Assembly: GCA_046759145.1 (NCBI GenBank)
Contig: JBHIBR010000151.1
Span: 1-5,305, forward strand
From: JBHIBR01 sp046759145 [NCBI: Nitrospinota bacterium]
GTDB lineage: Bacteria > UBA8248
DNA length: 5,305 bases
Reading direction: 5' to 3'
Shown here: positions 1 through 5,305 of the stretch, in pieces
Position numbering within the stretch: the first letter of the stretch is position 1
Layout of the letters: the number at the start of each line of letters is the position of its first letter
Position numbers and translations under genes: made by a program
Notes under the pieces: generated by a model
The model's database searches: none
What the model saw: the letters and a program-made list of their open reading frames with translations, nothing else
Told to the model about the DNA's origin: nothing

Positions 1-1
1 G

Positions 2-1186
2 ATGTTCGTCCACGACGACTGCCGCCACTACCTGGGAGATAGGCCCTGTCGCTTCGGGCGCCCCTGCGTGGGGTGCCCCCACTACGACCCCATGGGAACC
101 CGCATCCTGATCATCAAGACCGCCGCCCTCGGGGATGTGCTCCGGACCACCGCGCTCCTGCCCGGACTCAAGTGGCACTACCCCCAGAGCCACATCACCT
201 GGCTCACGGGCGCGGGCTCGGCGATGGAGCTGCTCCGCGACAACCCCCTGGTGGACGTGCTCCTTCCCTTCGGGGAAGCTTCCCTCATCGCCCTCTCGGC
301 CCAGCGCTTCGACCTCCTTGTGAGCCTGGACAAGGAAGCCCCCCCGGCGGCCGCCGCGGTGCGGGTTGAGGCGAGCCGGAAGGTGGGCTTCCGCCTCACC
401 CCCCACGGCACCCTCGGCATCTTCAACCCCGAGAGCGCCTACGCCCTCGCCCTGGGGCTCGACAATGAGCTCAAATTCTTCCGGAACCAGAAGACCTACC
501 AGGGGATCATCTACGAGATGGTGGGCCTCGAATACAGGGGGGAGGAATACATCTTCGGCTACCCCGAGGCGGACGGCGAAAGGGCGCGGGCCCGGCTCGC
601 CGCTCAGGGCGCCGCCGAGGGAGACCAGCTCGTCGCCCTCTGCCCGGGGGCGGGGAGCACTTTCGCCAACAAGAACTGGACTCCCGAGGGATACTCCCAG
701 CTCATCGGCTGGCTTCGGTCGGTCCACCGAACGTCGGTCCACCGAACGAGGGCGCCGGGCGTCCAGGTGCTCCTGGGCGGGGGGCCCGAGGATGCTCCTC
801 TCCTTGATCGCATCGCTCAGAGGGTTGGGCCGCCTCTCCTGCTTTCAGGCACCGACAACGCCATCCCCCAGTTCGCCGCCCTCCTGGACCGGTGCGCGCT
901 CGTGGTGGCGGGCGACTCGCTCCCCATGCACCTGGCCATCGCCCTGCGGAAGCCCGTGGTGGCCATCTTCGGCCCCACCTGCGCCCAGGAGGTGGAGCTC
1001 TACGGCCGGGGAGAGAAGGTGGTCACCGGGATCGAGTGCTCCCCCTGCTACAAGCGCCGCTGCGACTTCGCCGTCACCTGCATGACCGCCATCGGCTGGG
1101 AGCGGGTCGCCCGGGCGGTGGAGGCGCAACTCCGTTCGGTGGACCGACGTTCGGTGGACCGACAGCTCTCCCGCGCGCAGGGCTGA
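2..1186 (+). CDS. GT9-family glycosyltransferase (ADP-heptose:LPS heptosyltransferase-like)
   Basis: This is probably a cytoplasmic-face enzyme that moves a heptose or similar sugar from a nucleotide donor to the lipopolysaccharide core. An N-terminal Rossmann half opens with ILIIKTAALGDVLRTT (35-50). The C-terminal GT-B half has CPGAGSTFANKNW (214-226), a glycine-rich strand-turn VLLGGGPED (256-264), and GDSLPMHLA (304-312) followed by AIFGPT (321-326), all typical of GT9. A Cys-rich N-terminal extension (Cys7, 16, 22, 25) and a Cys cluster near the end (Cys346, 349, 354, 360) could bind metal or form disulfides; that is inference. The first ATG sits at base 2, so the true start may lie outside the window; Met31 just before the Rossmann strand is an alternative. 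Two 15-bp tandem-repeat pairs are embedded in frame: residues 240-249 (SVHRTSVHRT), in the turn between a helix and a beta strand, and 379-387 (SVDRRSVDR), in the C-terminal tail. The acceptor sugar cannot be told from sequence. Confidence 0.9.
   Translation: MFVHDDCRHYLGDRPCRFGRPCVGCPHYDPMGTRILIIKTAALGDVLRTTALLPGLKWHYPQSHITWLTGAGSAMELLRDNPLVDVLLPFGEASLIALSAQRFDLLVSLDKEAPPAAAAVRVEASRKVGFRLTPHGTLGIFNPESAYALALGLDNELKFFRNQKTYQGIIYEMVGLEYRGEEYIFGYPEADGERARARLAAQGAAEGDQLVALCPGAGSTFANKNWTPEGYSQLIGWLRSVHRTSVHRTRAPGVQVLLGGGPEDAPLLDRIAQRVGPPLLLSGTDNAIPQFAALLDRCALVVAGDSLPMHLAIALRKPVVAIFGPTCAQEVELYGRGEKVVTGIECSPCYKRRCDFAVTCMTAIGWERVARAVEAQLRSVDRRSVDRQLSRAQG
718..747 (-). repeat. 15-bp palindromic unit, perfect tandem pair (locus A), inside GT9 gene
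   Basis: Two identical tandem copies of GTCGGTCCACCGAAC, the complement of the unit seen at loci B and C. Each unit has the short dyad TCGG/CCGA around a 4-base centre. Read by the GT9 gene it gives SVHRT twice. The bases just upstream (TTCGGT at 714-719) look like part of a further unit and form an extra inverted match with ACCGAA at 726-731. Confidence 0.9.
1134..1163 (+). repeat. 15-bp palindromic unit, perfect tandem pair (locus B), 3' end of GT9 gene
   Basis: Two identical tandem copies of GTTCGGTGGACCGAC. They fall eight codons before the GT9 stop and are read as SVDRRSVDR, just beyond the last conserved helix of the enzyme (ERVARAVEAQL). All 30 bases match locus C and the complement of locus A. 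Confidence 0.9.
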
Positions 1187-1201
1187 CCTCCGCGGGATGG
1201 C

Positions 1202-1238
1202 TGGGAAGGTCCCAAGCTACTGAGGGCGCCGCCCCTCA
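1202..1238. terminator. two hairpins between convergent genes (possible bidirectional terminator)
   Basis: The 54 bases between the GT9 stop (1186) and the acpS stop (1241) hold two inverted repeats. TGGGA-AGG-TCCCA spans 1202-1214. TGAGGG-CGCCGC-CCCTCA spans 1221-1238. Because the genes converge, symmetric hairpins here could end transcription from both sides. Neither has a following T-run on either strand, so classical intrinsic termination is not shown. Confidence 0.4.
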
Positions 1239-1240
1239 CG

Positions 1241-1699
1241 TCAGTTCGGTGGACCGACGTTCGGTGGACCGACGGCCTCCCCCTCCAGGATCACCTGGGC
1301 GAGAGCGTGGGTGGGAGTGTGAGAGAGGGAGAGGTGGAGGCGGTGCACACCCCGCTCCCTCGCCAGCTCGGCCGCCCGCTGGCTGAGCCGCAGCCTCGGT
1401 CCACTGAACGCCGGCTGGCCGCTCTCGCCCGTTCGGTGGACCGGCGTTCGGCGAACCGACCGTTCGACCTCCACGTCCTTCCACCGGAGGCCCTCCGCAA
1501 GCCCCACGCCCAGGGCCTTGAAGGCGGCTTCCTTGGCCGCGAAGCGAGCGGCGTAGCAGGGGATGCGCTCCCGCCTCCCCTCGCAGTACTCCCTCTCCGC
1601 GTCGGTGAACAGGCGGCCGAGCAGCCGCTCCCCCCAGCGCTCGAGCGCCCGGCGCATCCGGGCCGCCTCGACCAGGTCCACCCCGACGCCCAGGATCAT
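1241..1699 (-). CDS. acpS: holo-[acyl-carrier-protein] synthase (4'-phosphopantetheinyl transferase)
   Basis: AcpS moves the 4'-phosphopantetheine arm of CoA to a serine of apo-ACP, activating fatty-acid synthesis in the cytoplasm. Family landmarks are present: MILGVGVDLVE at the N-terminus with the metal ligand Asp8, FTDAEREYC (31-39), ARFAAKEAAFKALG (51-64) with Glu57 and Lys61, GLRWKDVEV (70-78), and the C-terminal strand LHLSLSHTPTHALAQVILE (121-139). The 152 residues exceed the usual 120-135. The excess matches 15-bp repeat copies: residues 81-90 (SVRRTPVHRT), residues about 98-102 (FSGPR), and a C-terminal tail VGPPNVGPPN (143-152) that runs straight into the stop. The core looks intact, and the additions fall in a loop and the tail, so the enzyme is probably active. 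The ATG overlaps the TGA of the upstream acetyltransferase gene (ATGA at 1699-1696), which indicates translational coupling. Confidence 0.93.
   Translation of the reverse strand: MILGVGVDLVEAARMRRALERWGERLLGRLFTDAEREYCEGRRERIPCYAARFAAKEAAFKALGVGLAEGLRWKDVEVERSVRRTPVHRTGESGQPAFSGPRLRLSQRAAELARERGVHRLHLSLSHTPTHALAQVILEGEAVGPPNVGPPN
1244..1273 (+). repeat. 15-bp palindromic unit, perfect tandem pair (locus C), 3' end of acpS
   Basis: Two identical tandem copies of GTTCGGTGGACCGAC directly abut the acpS stop codon. The gene reads the complement, so the last ten residues of AcpS (VGPPNVGPPN) are made only of repeat. Loci B and C are direct repeats 80 bases apart that bracket the convergent intergenic gap. 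Confidence 0.9.
1395..1409 (-). repeat. single degenerate 15-bp unit (locus D) inside acpS
   Basis: CTCGGTCCACTGAAC differs from GTCGGTCCACCGAAC at two positions. acpS reads it from the other strand as part of FSGPR, in the loop just before the LRLS strand. With two mismatches and no tandem partner it could be a decayed copy. Chance resemblance is less likely given four other copies within 300 bases. Confidence 0.6.
1431..1460 (+). repeat. diverged tandem pair of the 15-bp unit (locus E) inside acpS
   Basis: The first unit, GTTCGGTGGACCGGC (1431-1445), has one mismatch to the consensus. The second, GTTCGGCGAACCGAC (1446-1460), has two. The 15-base period and tandem pairing are kept. acpS reads the pair as SVRRTPVHRT, placed between the GLRWKDVEVE strand and the next conserved strand, where AcpS family members vary in length. 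Confidence 0.82.
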
Positions 1700-2484
1700 C
1701 GCCCCGCTACCACCCAGAAGGCCTCCGCCAGGCGGCGGAAGCCGAGGCTCTCGAACACCCGAATGGAGGGGGTGTTCCCCTGGACGACATAGCAGTAGGG
1801 GGTCCTGCCGCGGGCCAACTGGGCACGGACGAGCGCCGAGACCACCGAGCGGGCGAGGCCTCGCCCCCGGTGGCTCTCAAGGGTGTGGAGGCTCCCGATG
1901 CTCCCGTCGCCGTGGACGATCATCCAGCTCACCGCACTCCCCCTCTCCCGGACTGCCGCGCTCGGCGCCCGGCGTATGCGCTCGAGGACGTAGCCCACCT
2001 CGTCGCCGTAGGGCCAGTGGCTCGCCACGAGGAGGGCATCCTCTTCCCGGAGGGGCTCGGTCGGGTGGGCGTCGCGGGGTCGAAACTCCTTCGGGTCGAG
2101 CTGGTAGAGGGAGCAGGCGTTCGCACGCAGGAGGGGCCTCCGGCGGGCGAGGGCCGCGTGCACCGCGGGCGCAACGCCCCCCAGGCGCAGCTCCCCCTGC
2201 TCCATTCCCACCTCGCGCGCCAGGGCATCGAGGGCCGGCAAGGCGCGCTCGACCTCGCCCCGTTCGGTGGACCGAGGCCCCGCGCACAGGGCGAACCAAC
2301 CCCGCCGGGAGTGAACCACCCAGGAGGGCTCGCCGGGGTCGTCCGCGAAGAAGTCTCCGATGGACTCCGGCTCTTCCTCCAGGGCGCCCAGGAGCTTCAG
2401 GGCGTGGGGGAGCCCCCCCTCGAGGAAGCGCGCAATGGACCCCCGGTGGGCCTTGCTGCACCTCTGAAACGGCCTCGACGCCAT
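1696..2484 (-). CDS. GNAT-family N-acyltransferase (FR47/GLYAT-like C-terminal domain)
   Basis: A 262-residue protein expected to transfer an acyl group from an acyl-CoA to an amine; the substrate is unknown. The N-terminal half (1-130) is poorly conserved. The C-terminal half is a GNAT fold: a strand around VSWMIVHGDGSIGSLHTL (185-202), the acyl-CoA pyrophosphate loop HRGRGLA (205-211; pattern R-x-x-G-x-A), a helix, then YVVQGNTPSIRVFESLGFR (232-250), the hallmark of FR47-like enzymes. The start at 2484 was chosen because GGAGG lies five bases upstream (2494-2490). The frame stays open upstream to 2709, but that stretch crosses the divergent promoter and the dehydrogenase-like start and has no plausible coding content. 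One 15-bp repeat unit is embedded at residues 71-75 (RSTER). The stop overlaps the acpS start (ATGA), so the two genes form an operon. Confidence 0.85.
   Translation of the reverse strand: MASRPFQRCSKAHRGSIARFLEGGLPHALKLLGALEEEPESIGDFFADDPGEPSWVVHSRRGWFALCAGPRSTERGEVERALPALDALAREVGMEQGELRLGGVAPAVHAALARRRPLLRANACSLYQLDPKEFRPRDAHPTEPLREEDALLVASHWPYGDEVGYVLERIRRAPSAAVRERGSAVSWMIVHGDGSIGSLHTLESHRGRGLARSVVSALVRAQLARGRTPYCYVVQGNTPSIRVFESLGFRRLAEAFWVVAGR
2262..2276 (+). repeat. single 15-bp unit (locus F) inside the GNAT gene
   Basis: GTTCGGTGGACCGAG matches the consensus at 14 of 15 bases. The GNAT gene reads its complement as RSTER, between a predicted strand (GWFALCAGP) and the following Glu-rich helix. 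It is the rightmost copy in the window; none was found in the remaining 3 kb. Confidence 0.75.
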
Positions 2485-2521
2485 CGCCCCCTCCGTCCTT
2501 TGCGGGCCGCTCCGCCCCGTC

Positions 2522-2529
2522 ATTATACT
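2522..2529. promoter_or_regulatory. overlapping divergent -10 elements
   Basis: In very GC-rich surroundings, ATTATACT contains a perfect TATAAT on the minus strand (2527-2522) and TATACT on the plus strand (2524-2529). The minus-strand box lies 38 bases before the GNAT start codon. The plus-strand box lies 52 bases before the GTG at 2581. The -35 regions are poor on both strands; TTGCGG at 2500-2505, with an 18-base spacer, is the best plus-strand candidate. The position between two divergent starts supports a shared promoter in which the two polymerases would exclude each other. This is inference from the motif alone. Confidence 0.5.
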
Positions 2530-2580
2530 CGCCGCAGCGTCCGGCCCCCTCGCAGGACGCATCCCCCGGGAGGACGGCCG

Positions 2581-2742
2581 GTGCGGACCCACAGAGTGGT
2601 GCTCATCCCCGACGCCGGAATCGGGCCCGAGCTGGTGGCTGCCGCCGCCGCCCGGATGAGAGGGCAGGCTACCCGAAAACCGCACCGGCGTGTTGAGAGC
2701 TGCCCTCAAATTCTGTATGGTTGTGAAGCCAGAGTGTCGTAA
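2581..2742 (+). pseudogene. truncated isocitrate/3-isopropylmalate dehydrogenase-like N-terminus
   Basis: A GTG start with the strong ribosome-binding site GGGAGGA (2568-2574, six-base spacer) opens VRTHRVVLIPDAGIGPELV. This resembles the first strand and helix of the isocitrate/isopropylmalate dehydrogenase family, whose usual motif is IPGDGIGPE. Here GDG has become DAG, so either the fragment has decayed or this is a divergent member. After AAAAARM (to about 2658) the family resemblance is lost, base composition changes, and the frame runs through unrelated residues to a TAA at 2740-2742. Family members are about 330-400 residues; this frame has 53. The fragment is divergent to the GNAT gene and shares its promoter region. 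The likely cause is a recombination or insertion breakpoint near 2657-2660, though an assembly join would look the same. Confidence 0.6.
2660..2707. other. stem-loop at the junction of the two sequence types
   Basis: GAGGGCAG (2660-2667) and CTGCCCTC (2700-2707) form a perfect 8-bp inverted repeat around 32 bases. CT/AG can extend it by two pairs past a one-base bulge. A smaller inverted repeat, CAC-CGGC-GTG (2683-2692), lies in the loop. It begins exactly where the dehydrogenase similarity ends, so it may be the end of a mobile element. No T-run follows and I do not recognise a known element terminus. Confidence 0.4.
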
Positions 2743-3030
2743 AAACTAGGACCGCAAGGGATTGCGAGCGAGGTCCCTGGTGAAGACAGATTAAAGGGCA
2801 TCGCCTGTCTGCTCACCCGCTTCGGGACCAGGGGGCGGAACTCGGCGGAGGTCCGAATCGCCCGCAGGAACTGCCGCCTCTGGTAGAACCGTCCCACCTG
2901 GTCCAAGCAGGTCTATAAGGGACTCTGGCGGAGGTCTCAGCCCGAGCCCGGGCGGTCCATCATTGCAGCACGCTGTAAGATTGCCAGCGCTGCGAGTGAA
3001 ACGAGAACCCTAGAGGAGGAGAAGAACCTG
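2743..3030. other. 288-base non-coding stretch upstream of the EEP gene
   Basis: No convincing gene was seen. It contains a hairpin-forming segment at 2749-2776: GGACC, GCAA, loop GGGA, TTGC, six unpaired bases, GGTCC. The 10-base sequence GGCGGAGGTC occurs twice, at 2844-2853 and 2927-2936. GCAGC (2965-2969) and GCTGC (2989-2993) form a weak inverted repeat. TATAAG at 2914-2919 is a possible -10 without a clear -35. The frame of the downstream gene is open back to a TAG at 2884-2886, but those residues match nothing I know. The stretch could hold a structured leader, an IS remnant, or debris from the recombination that cut the dehydrogenase-like gene. Confidence 0.4.
3012..3021 (+). promoter_or_regulatory. 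strong ribosome-binding site for the EEP gene
   Basis: AGAGGAGGAG contains a full anti-16S match, AGGAGG (3014-3019), 11 bases before the ATG at 3031. It fixes that start, since the frame stays open further upstream. Confidence 0.7.
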
Positions 3031-4029
3031 ATGGCTCTGAGGATTTGCACCTACAACGTCGAATGGTTCGACCACCTGTTCAATGACGACAACACCATGA
3101 AGACCGGCGCCAACGAGCAGAGGAGATTCCACGCGATCCGCGACGTGCTTCAAGCCATAGGAGCCGACCTCATCGGGGTGGTCGAAGCCCCGAACACCAG
3201 TGCGGACCGTACACAATCGACGGTGGTCCGGCTCGAGACGTTCGCGAACTGGGCCGGCATTTCAACCACCAAGGCGATCGTCGGCACCATCTCCGCCGGC
3301 GGCCAGGAGCTCGCCCTACTCTGGGACCCGGCGAAATTCGACATCACCCACCAACCGGGGGGCAAGACGGGGAGCCGATCCAATCCACCTTTCACAGGGG
3401 AGTTCTACTTCGACACCGATGACGATCGCATCTTCGAAGCATACAAATTCTACCGGCCGCCGCTAGAGGCTCAGGTCACGGTAAAGGGGGCCAATCAGCA
3501 ATTCTACTTAATGCTAGTCCACACCAAGTCCAAGGGCATCTTCAACTCAGTGGACCTGCTGCATTGGCAGCGGGAATCGCTCCGAAACCGACGGAAGCTA
3601 TACGCGGAGTGCACCTGGACCCGAAGGCGTGTCGACGAGTGGCTGGACGAGCAAAGAGATGTCATCGTGATGGGCGATATCAACGATGGTCCCGAAATGG
3701 ACTACTATGAGTTCCAGTTCGGCCGTAGCGCAGTCGAGATCATCATGGGAAGCATCTTCGACCCCGACCGAGTTCTGCGGAACTATGCCGGCCAACCAAA
3801 GTGGACCCGCTACGGTTGGAGCCCGTCCTCCACCCGATTCGAAGACCAGATGACCGGGAAGAATGTCAACGTCCTCATCGACCACATCCTGATATCCAAA
3901 AAGATTCAAGTGAAAGCGGGTAAACCTCACAAGATCTGGAACCCCTATGAGGATGACGACGCAAAGCCGCTTAAGGCTGCGCTGTTAGAAGCCTCCGATC
4001 ACTTTCCGGTGACTTTGGACTTAGCGTGA
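3031..4029 (+). CDS. endonuclease/exonuclease/phosphatase (DNase I-like) family protein
   Basis: A 332-residue metal-dependent phosphoesterase of the EEP fold. Family members cut nucleic acids, inositol phosphates or sphingolipid headgroups; the substrate here cannot be assigned. Catalytic landmarks appear in the usual order: TYNVEWF with Asn9, GVVEAPN with the Mg ligand Glu52, LVHTKSKG (162-169) with His164, VMGDINDGP (213-221) with Asp216 and Asn218, IDHILIS (283-289), and the C-terminal ASDHFPV (321-327) with Asp323 and His324. All needed acids and histidines are present, so the enzyme should be active. No signal peptide or membrane segment is seen, so it is probably cytoplasmic, unlike secreted DNases. 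It has its own strong SD. Lower GC and codons such as TTA and CTA set it apart from the genes at 1-2500. The next gene is 227 bases downstream on the same strand, too far to assume an operon. Confidence 0.88.
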   Translation: MALRICTYNVEWFDHLFNDDNTMKTGANEQRRFHAIRDVLQAIGADLIGVVEAPNTSADRTQSTVVRLETFANWAGISTTKAIVGTISAGGQELALLWDPAKFDITHQPGGKTGSRSNPPFTGEFYFDTDDDRIFEAYKFYRPPLEAQVTVKGANQQFYLMLVHTKSKGIFNSVDLLHWQRESLRNRRKLYAECTWTRRRVDEWLDEQRDVIVMGDINDGPEMDYYEFQFGRSAVEIIMGSIFDPDRVLRNYAGQPKWTRYGWSPSSTRFEDQMTGKNVNVLIDHILISKKIQVKAGKPHKIWNPYEDDDAKPLKAALLEASDHFPVTLDLA

Positions 4030-4256
4030 TCCTCGGGCAGCCGTCTTCAGAACCGCCAACGAGAGCGCGGAGGCTGTCCGGGACTTGTGGGAGTCCGAGG
4101 GGGTGGCGGCCTGCATTTAAGGAACCCGAGTGCGCCCGCCCATCGGGATGCTCCGCGCTCAGACTCGAAGGGCCTTACACCTGATGGCACGCCAATTTTG
4201 AGCTACCATTCAGCGGCGATGGCGATCCGCCTGGGAAACCTTGGAAAACAAGGCCG
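4030..4256 (+). other. 227-base intergenic stretch
   Basis: No supported gene, RNA or clear promoter was found. A short open frame ending in TAA near 4120 has no start or recognisable product. GGACT/AGTCC around 4081-4097 is a weak hairpin without a T-run, so termination after the EEP gene is not demonstrated. Confidence 0.35.
4239..4253 (+). promoter_or_regulatory. small hairpin over the ribosome-binding region of the hydrolase gene
   Basis: CCTTG-GAAAA-CAAGG ends three bases before the ATG at 4257. The only SD-like bases (AAGG, 4250-4253) lie in its 3' arm. In mRNA it could lower initiation of the hydrolase. With five pairs and an A-rich loop it is only a moderate structure. Confidence 0.35.
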
Positions 4257-5210
4257 ATGAAAGCCCTCCTAGTTTTTGTCGCCGTTCTGGTGATCCTGGC
4301 CGGCGTGGGCACCCTCGGCTGGTACGGATGCGAGCTGGGCATCCACCCAGTGAGAGAGGAAGAGAGGTGGCCATCTGGCGAGTTTCCAAGGTATAGGCTC
4401 GACCAATTTAACCTGCCCCCCCCGGAGGAGGTGCACTTCGAGAGCCGTGATGGTCTGACGCTGGCCGGTTGGTTTTTTCGGGTCGCCGACGGCCCAACTG
4501 TAATCCTGGCCCACGGCAAGGATGGCAGCCGCTTCGAGATGCTTCCCCACGCCGATTACCTGCACAGGGGTGGCTTCTCCGTACTGATGTTCGACTCCCG
4601 CCATCGTGGCAGAAGCGAGGGCCACGAGGTGACCCTCGGGGCCAAGGAGCCGTGGGACATCGAAGGTGCGGTGGACTATCTCAGGAAGCGGCCCGACGTA
4701 GATCCAGAGCGTATCGGCGTACAAGGTATCTCGTTGGGCGCCGCGTCGGGCATTATGGCGGCGGCGGAAACACCGAATATAAAGGGAGTGGTGGCTGAAA
4801 GCGCCTTCAAGACCATAAGCAGCGTCATAGATCATAGCTTCACTTACGTCGTCGGCCCGCCCAGATTTCCCTTCGCGCTCGTCAGCAAGTTCATCTGCGA
4901 GCTCCGCCTGGGTGTCGACCTCGACGAGGTGGCGCCTGTTAAAGTCATCCGTGAGATCAGCCCACGCCCTGTCTTTCTCATACACGACCGCGAAGACGAA
5001 CTGTTACCCAGCGACTCAGGCAAAGCGCTTTATAAGGCGGCCCGCGAGCCCAAGGTGCTGTGGCAAATACCGGAGGCCCTGCATGGCAAAGGCTGGCAGA
5101 CAGCCCCCAAGGAGTACGAGCGTCGGGTTCTGGCTTTCTGGCGACAGACCTTCGGGATAAATCGGCCTGAAAGGACAAAGGGAAGCAAACCTAAGCCCCT
5201 GGGGATTTAG
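4257..5210 (+). CDS. membrane-anchored alpha/beta-hydrolase (serine hydrolase)
   Basis: A 317-residue protein of the BEM46-like/dienelactone-type alpha/beta-hydrolase group; the substrate (ester, thioester or amide) is unknown. MKALLVFVAVLVILAGVG (1-18) continuing to about residue 23 is a hydrophobic signal anchor after one lysine. No lipobox fits Cys25. The hydrolase domain should therefore face the periplasm or outer side. Motifs in order: AHGKDGSR (85-92), the oxyanion region; MFDSRHRGRSEG (111-122); the nucleophile elbow GISLGA (157-162) with Ser159; LIHDREDELLP (241-251) with Asp247 in the acid position; and ALHGKGW (274-280) with His276. The triad is complete and the length is normal. 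The ATG was chosen because the anchor starts there, but the SD is weak and partly inside a hairpin. The last 14 residues are basic and proline-rich. Composition matches the EEP gene, so the two may have arrived together; a functional link is not shown. Confidence 0.87.
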   Translation: MKALLVFVAVLVILAGVGTLGWYGCELGIHPVREEERWPSGEFPRYRLDQFNLPPPEEVHFESRDGLTLAGWFFRVADGPTVILAHGKDGSRFEMLPHADYLHRGGFSVLMFDSRHRGRSEGHEVTLGAKEPWDIEGAVDYLRKRPDVDPERIGVQGISLGAASGIMAAAETPNIKGVVAESAFKTISSVIDHSFTYVVGPPRFPFALVSKFICELRLGVDLDEVAPVKVIREISPRPVFLIHDREDELLPSDSGKALYKAAREPKVLWQIPEALHGKGWQTAPKEYERRVLAFWRQTFGINRPERTKGSKPKPLGI

Positions 5211-5214
5211 GTTT
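5187..5214. terminator. strong hairpin across the hydrolase stop codon
   Basis: AAACCTAA (5187-5194) and TTAGGTTT (5207-5214) form a perfect 8-bp stem, and CCC/GGG inside (around 5196-5204) extends it. The stop codon TAG (5208-5210) lies in the 3' arm. The next bases are GGGGGC, not a T-run, so it may be an mRNA 3'-end stabiliser, a weak terminator for either direction, or an inverted repeat linked to the neighbouring IS. Confidence 0.45.
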
Positions 5215-5259
5215 GGGGGCAAGTTCCCAATGAGGGAAATAAACTAGCCTCCCTAGAAG

Positions 5260-5305
5260 TCATCCCAAAACCCTTTTCAGCACGGTGAGGGCGCAGGCGA
5301 GATGG
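5260..5305 (-). CDS. C-terminal end of a probable IS5-type transposase (partial)
   Basis: The minus strand from the window edge reads HLACALTVLKRVLG and then TGA (5262-5260). The HLACA-x-x-x-L+R ending is characteristic of the C-terminus of IS5-family (IS427/ISL2-like) DDE transposases, from memory of that family. Only 14 codons are visible, so the catalytic region lies beyond the window. If correct, one end of an insertion sequence lies between about 5211 and 5260. The bases there (including CTAG-CCTCC-CTAG at 5244-5256) hold no terminal repeat I can name. The call rests on a short match. Confidence 0.5.
   Translation of the reverse strand, partial: HLACALTVLKRVLG

Follow-up and report, generated by a model that had tools for sequence, protein, structure and literature searches.

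A very short palindromic repeat family has probably spread in host DNA and inserted into protein-coding genes of the Nitrospinota bacterium JBHIBR01 sp046759145. The repeat was studied in a stretch of 5,305 nucleotides (GenBank assembly GCA_046759145.1, contig JBHIBR010000151.1, positions 1 to 5,305 of the forward strand), and this whole stretch is referred to as the window. Ten units of the 15-bp sequence GTTCGGTGGACCGAC were located at six sites, all within positions 718-2276, when 0-2 mismatches were allowed. At two inner sites of the holo-ACP synthase gene acpS and at one inner site of a glycosyltransferase gene, the residues encoded by the repeat are missing from homologous proteins.

Ten repeat units within three genes

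All units lie inside the reading frames of three genes. The first gene encodes a heptosyltransferase-like protein of glycosyltransferase family 9, GT9 (2..1186, plus strand; Pfam PF01075, E 1.2e-20). The second is acpS, encoding a holo-ACP synthase of 152 residues (1241..1699, minus strand; Pfam PF01648, and NCBIfam TIGR00516 above cut-off). The third is a GNAT-type acetyltransferase gene (1696..2484, minus strand; Pfam PF08445, E 1.9e-20), for which the start codon at 2484 was chosen; its frame stays open upstream.

The units are arranged as four head-to-tail pairs (718, 1134, 1244, and 1431) and two single units (1395 and 2262), and both strands are used. Within GT9, two exact tandem units on the minus strand (718..747), antisense to the gene, are translated as SVHRTSVHRT at about residues 239-249. 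Two further exact tandem units on the plus strand (1134..1163), sense to the gene, give RSVDRRSVDR near its 3' end. The acpS gene holds three sites. Two exact tandem units (1244..1273, plus strand, antisense) lie immediately ahead of the stop codon and are read as VGPPNVGPPN; one unit with 2 mismatches (1395..1409, minus strand, sense) is read as AFSGP; and two units with 1 and 2 mismatches (1431..1460, plus strand, antisense) are read as RSVRRTPVHRT. The GNAT gene carries one unit with 1 mismatch (2262..2276, plus strand, antisense), read as RSTER. Altogether, six units match exactly, two differ at one base, and two differ at two bases. The mixture of six identical units and four units differing by 1-2 bases looks as in a family of mixed age.

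The count was compared with 200 dinucleotide-preserving shuffles of the window. The shuffles gave a mean of 0.25 matches and a maximum of 3, and 0/200 reached 10. This excludes a chance-level count for this window. Every other 15-mer in positions 1-2520 has at least 4 mismatches to the unit. The units and their strands were all recovered as the original prediction had placed them, including their location in GT9, acpS, and GNAT. Its claim that five of the six possible frames are read was also borne out. The SVHRT frame is used at two sites, SVDRR, VGPPN, and RSTER are each used, the FGGPT frame appears as FSGPR, and VRWTD is the unused frame.

Two further arguments of the original prediction fail. 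It had held that genes were hit even with intergenic space available. The coding fraction of positions 1-2520 is 0.964, so six of six sites in genes is expected by chance (P = 0.80), and the observation carries no weight. It had also pointed to the openness of the tandem unit in all six frames. The tandem consensus indeed has no stop; however, this property is common, being found in 30,538 of 50,000 (61%) random 15-mers of the unit's base composition when these were read as tandem arrays in six frames. The openness is largely due to high GC. It helps explain survival of the copies and is no sign of design.

Palindromic core, folding, and boundaries

The core of the unit is TCGGT-GG-ACCGA. A single unit is predicted to form a weak hairpin of 4 pairs (-2.2 kcal/mol with DNA parameters). 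The 30-bp pair is predicted to form a 27-base hairpin on either strand, in which a GG/GG internal loop separates two 5-bp stems and the end loop is of 3. The energy of this hairpin is -8.4 kcal/mol with DNA parameters and -12.6 kcal/mol with RNA parameters. No Rfam covariance model matched the window at E up to 0.5.

The boundaries of the three exact pairs share one phase, and the 15-mers that adjoin them in register differ from the unit at 7-13 positions. These fixed boundaries and unrelated neighbors favor a defined element.

Inner repeat sites as additions to AcpS and GT9

AcpS was aligned with solved structures, of which the best 5 of 35 chains were used. Gaps of 10 residues at the 1431 pair and 5 residues at the 1395 unit were found with 3qmn, 5vbx, and 5xuh, and gaps of 11 and 4 residues with 2jbz and 2wdy. 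Five of five AcpS homologs from plasmid records lack exactly 15 residues across the inner repeat stretch; a sixth homolog was excluded for a stop codon (L026).

A deletion scan was then scored, in which each stretch of 1-20 residues was removed from AcpS and the remainder was compared with a profile built from the five homologs. The best single removal had a length of 15 (128.1 bits), followed by a length of 10 (126.3 bits), both at repeat sites. Smaller local peaks were seen at lengths 3, 5, and 8; for a length of 5, the top-scoring removal begins at 96-97, where the single unit lies. Among the 19,182 double removals of 10 and 5 residues, starts 81-82 and 96-97 share the top score of 135.2 bits, compared with 115.7 bits for the intact protein. 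The inner repeat DNA of acpS begins within codons 80 and 97, and the matching removals start at 80/81 and 97/98. The four repeat-matching removals score 134.2, 133.9, 135.2, and 134.9 bits, with ranks 9, 11, 3 (tied first), and 5. The repeat-encoded removal that reaches the tied top has starts 81 and 97. As judged from these alignments and scores, both inner acpS sites are clean additions, of 30 and 15 bp, and acpS stands as the best-shown case of insertion.

The GT9 homologs are 29-30% identical, and three of three lack 11 residues at the 718 pair. The best removals from GT9 were of 11 residues from 236, 241, or 242 (222.6 bits), and a 10-residue removal from 243 gave 221.3 bits; the intact protein scores 208.9 bits. 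Five solved GT9 relatives were present among the matches listed. The best two are unaligned over the 718 site; the remaining three, near-identical to one another, have the 11-residue gap too. Comparison with relatives thus places an addition at the inner GT9 site, within one residue. Orthologs with matching residues in matching positions were named in the original prediction as the observation that would overturn it. At the inner sites, these residues are absent from 5/5 AcpS and 3/3 GT9 homologs.

Terminal sites and the GNAT site

The 1134 pair ends 23 bases short of the GT9 gene end. Two GT9 homologs with a known annotated gene end stop at the edge of this pair; the third homolog was trimmed to its match and is uninformative on the gene end. 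In AcpS, the solved chain 2jbz extends to query residue 140 and stops three residues ahead of the C-terminal insert. Both C-terminal sites (1134 and 1244) appear only compatible with insertion. The predicted likeness to in-gene insertion in unrelated genes, as known from Rickettsia, therefore holds at the inner acpS sites and the inner GT9 site and does not extend with the same strength to the C-terminal pairs.

The 2262 unit falls in the N-terminal part of the GNAT protein, and no homolog among the matches listed covers that part. A 5-base direct repeat, GCCCC, stands on either side of this unit (2257-2281), the only site with a flanking repeat of more than 2 bases. It is set in C-rich DNA and may be due to chance.

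Comparison with known repeat systems

The STRR heptamer repeats of cyanobacteria are short tandem direct repeats dispersed over the genome. The present repeat resembles them in being a short tandem direct repeat and differs in its 15-bp palindromic unit, whereas the STRR units are of 7 bases and form no palindrome. Rickettsia palindromic elements (RPEs) are palindromic repeats lying in-frame within unrelated protein genes, where enzyme activity is reportedly kept (PMC10969869, PMC6649704). In-frame insertion into unrelated coding genes is likewise seen at the inner acpS and GT9 sites. The RPEs differ in size, at about 150 bp each, tenfold the 15-bp unit, compared with 15 or 30 bp here, and the host DNA of the present repeat is GC-rich (71% in positions 1-2520); the likeness is one of description.

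The repetitive extragenic palindromes (REPs) are closer in size, and the following features are taken from the same source (PMC3733652). The counterparts of RPE-4 and RPE-6 are CGTC REPs of shorter length, and intragenic GTAG/CGTC REPs are known in Opitutus terrae, R. conorii, and Thauera. REP hairpins measure 20-40 bp, comparable to the 30-bp pair here. More than half of the intragenic REP inserts are dimers or grouped, and certain genes are hit twice; such dimer or group inserts amount to 20-30 residues, compared with 5-10 here. A REP carries a GTAG or CGTC tag, unpaired, at one end, and CGTC is often replaced by TGTC or CCTC. No GTAG is present in our repeat. Its reverse-strand unit starts with GTC (CTC in two copies), preceded at the six sites by g, t, c, c, g, and c, respectively. 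CGTC, TGTC, or CCTC therefore fits by sequence at 4/6 sites, yet the last two bases are paired in the predicted stem.

The CGTC REP has a stem of 8-9 pairs starting with A-T, a loop of 4-5, and a short unpaired tail, mostly CCA (PMC3733652). Here the stem has 4 pairs in the single unit or 5+5 with a GG/GG internal loop in the pair, the loop is of 3, and the flanks inspected are without CCA. REP dimers are mostly head-head in that source, whereas 4/4 pairs here are head-to-tail. GTAG/CGTC REPs are mostly intergenic; none of the six sites here is intergenic, but only 4% of positions 1-2520 is non-coding. GTAG-type REPs associate with a transposase gene (PMC3733652). Miniature inverted-repeat transposable elements (MITEs) measure 70-300 bp (PMC3733652), compared with 15 or 30 bp here, and their target duplication has no consistent counterpart at the six sites. 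PARCEL repeats are protein-coding palindromic repeats like the present one (PMC2996958), and they differ as a 25-residue motif in tandem tracts of open reading frames without assigned function, compared with short inserts in housekeeping enzymes here. We read the repeat as a non-autonomous REP/RPE-like element of unusually small size. It departs from RPEs in their usual length, from REPs in stem plan and dimer type, and from MITEs in length and target duplication. A distant, tag-degenerate REP is possible.

Spread of the repeat and alternative explanations

According to the favored explanation, the element would take the form of one 15-bp unit or, at 4/6 sites, of 30 bp as two head-to-tail units. 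Each insertion would lengthen the gene by 15 or 30 bases and the protein by 5 or 10 residues, and the protein would survive where the site is tolerant. The gain of 5 or 10 residues with an open frame follows from inserts of 15 or 30 bases and from a consensus without a stop in any phase on either strand. Selection would then retain those copies that keep the frame and lie where extra residues are tolerated, for example in turns or at C-termini. The repeat would be selfish, non-autonomous DNA with copies throughout the genome, and it might move as a single-stranded hairpin, via a transposase acting in trans or via template switching in replication or repair. The proteins carrying the inserts presumably still work. 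A wider proposal is made only tentatively and may well fail, namely that the repeat represents an undescribed class of ultra-short mobile palindromes with a 15-bp unit, which would normally insert as a head-to-tail hairpin of 30 bp and leave no target duplication, and that inserts of 5 or 10 residues occur in nearly all phases in a large share of the genes of this uncultured lineage.

Several results weigh against insertion and spread of such an element. Genome-wide spread is unproved, with its evidence coming from this window. No transposase was found among the five window genes searched. Target duplication shows no consistent length, and the flank repeats at the six sites are of 1, 0, 0, 2, 1, and 5 bases. 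Directly after the 1431 pair, cgttcg at 1461-1466 is an out-of-register echo of the unit start, and this site may include a part-unit, possibly the remnant of a third copy. The GT9 gap is 11 residues and the repeat pair predicts 10; the eleventh residue may reflect normal variation of the loop. Three rhizobial AcpS homologs carry C-terminal tails of their own, and since AcpS tails differ among homologs, the C-terminal sites are weak tests. The two AlphaFold single-sequence models were of too low quality (mean pLDDT 43.8 and 32.7) for the sites to be located in them, so the tolerance at turns rests on the alignments and on background knowledge of the AcpS fold. The exact 30-mer is absent from viral_contigs and from genome_contigs; in genome_contigs it was the one pattern used, and diverged relatives there may have been missed. 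A blastn search with a three-unit query found nothing in plasmids and 11 records in phages, with listed E-values all about 9.

Other searches for relatives gave a similar picture. Three looser paired patterns had no match in viral contigs, and no plasmid DNA resembling the window was found. The search for GT9 relatives in genome_contigs gave 40 pattern matches, of which 0 were confirmed. The exact single unit occurs in 22 viral stretches, each of which holds a single exact copy with no second unit alongside it. Three of these stretches have further matches elsewhere with 2-3 mismatches, and six share one identical flank. These viral single units, none in tandem, were considered as relatives and rated chance-like. 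In the open-licence PMC literature, judged on titles and abstract beginnings of the papers listed, no 15-bp in-gene palindrome was met, and the letters of the unit occur in no paper searched.

Local expansion is an unlikely alternative to the spreading repeat family. The repeats would then have arisen in this gene cluster and passed between its neighboring genes through slippage and conversion, with no dispersal over the genome. The six sites crowd into the high-GC half of the window and span about 1.6 kb of its 5,305 bp (P = 0.010 if six sites are placed uniformly; the statistic was picked after the data were seen), the pairs are tandem units, and the possible part-unit after the 1431 pair fits this process. 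However, the copies lie on both strands of three unrelated genes with shared boundaries at the exact pairs, and slippage by itself cannot relocate a unit. The unit-free half also differs in GC at third codon positions (GC3), at 0.71-0.75 compared with 0.88-0.90 in the repeat-bearing half, and may be acquired DNA.

A REP-like function is also improbable. In this view, the 30-bp hairpins where the 3' ends of GT9 and acpS face each other would protect mRNA ends, terminate transcription, or bind a protein, and the other copies would be spill-over. Two of the four pairs do lie no more than 23 bases from the convergent gene ends, a position favored by REPs (PMC3733652), and the predicted RNA hairpin at -12.6 kcal/mol would suit such a role. 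But a consensus scan of positions 1-2700 found no terminator-like site with a T run, the other four sites lie within genes and away from 3' ends, and the 1134 and 1244 pairs are both in coding sequence despite the 54 bases of spacer that separate the convergent GT9 and acpS genes.

An assembly or library artefact, in which an adapter or linker was inserted into reads, is very improbable. Six identical units of a GC-rich 15-mer could suggest it, as could the marked GC change in the window, which can signal a chimeric contig. Four units are diverged, however; the additions are of 15 or 30 bases at every site, and the frames are open through all six. Least credible of all is that the residues are native, vertically inherited functional sequence and the DNA likeness a coincidence or codon bias: the length of the AcpS C-terminal tail varies among homologs and the GNAT site has no covering homolog, but 0/200 shuffles reach the count, one DNA sequence read in five frames gives differing amino acids, and the inner acpS and GT9 residues are missing from homologs.

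Significance of a 15-bp in-gene repeat

In-frame palindromic insertions are already known from Rickettsia and some REP-rich genomes. The present version measures 15/30 bp and occupies six sites within 1.6 kb, three of them in the 152-residue AcpS. To our knowledge, after a limited literature search, it would be the shortest and densest in-gene case. If the wider proposal is true, the genome would amount to a naturally made inventory of the positions at which proteins put up with short insertions. If the genome is full of units, it would show directly where insertion is tolerated and whether such DNA makes new protein sequence. Elements this small also raise the question of how copying occurs.

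Genes and composition of the window

The repeat-free part of the window, positions 2521-5305, contains an endonuclease/exonuclease/phosphatase family gene (3031-4029) and an alpha/beta hydrolase gene (4257-5210), both without a unit. The search for viral relatives of these two downstream genes was unproductive. The GC content is 71% in positions 1-2520 and 57-60% in both downstream genes. The repeat-free half was either acquired after the repeats spread, or joined in a chimeric contig, or left without units by a repeat family that is local.

A frame at 2581-2670 on the plus strand has a translation that starts VRTHRVVLIPDAGIGPELV. This start presumably resembles that of an isocitrate/isopropylmalate dehydrogenase, and the likeness is then lost. 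A Pfam search with 53 residues of this frame gave no match at E up to 1. The frame is possibly a gene cut where the two halves join. At the other end of the window (2-100, plus strand), GT9 opens with a cysteine-rich segment, CRHY...CPHYDP, ahead of the catalytic domain, and this start is partly common to two plasmid-borne homologs from Flammeovirga and Streptomyces.

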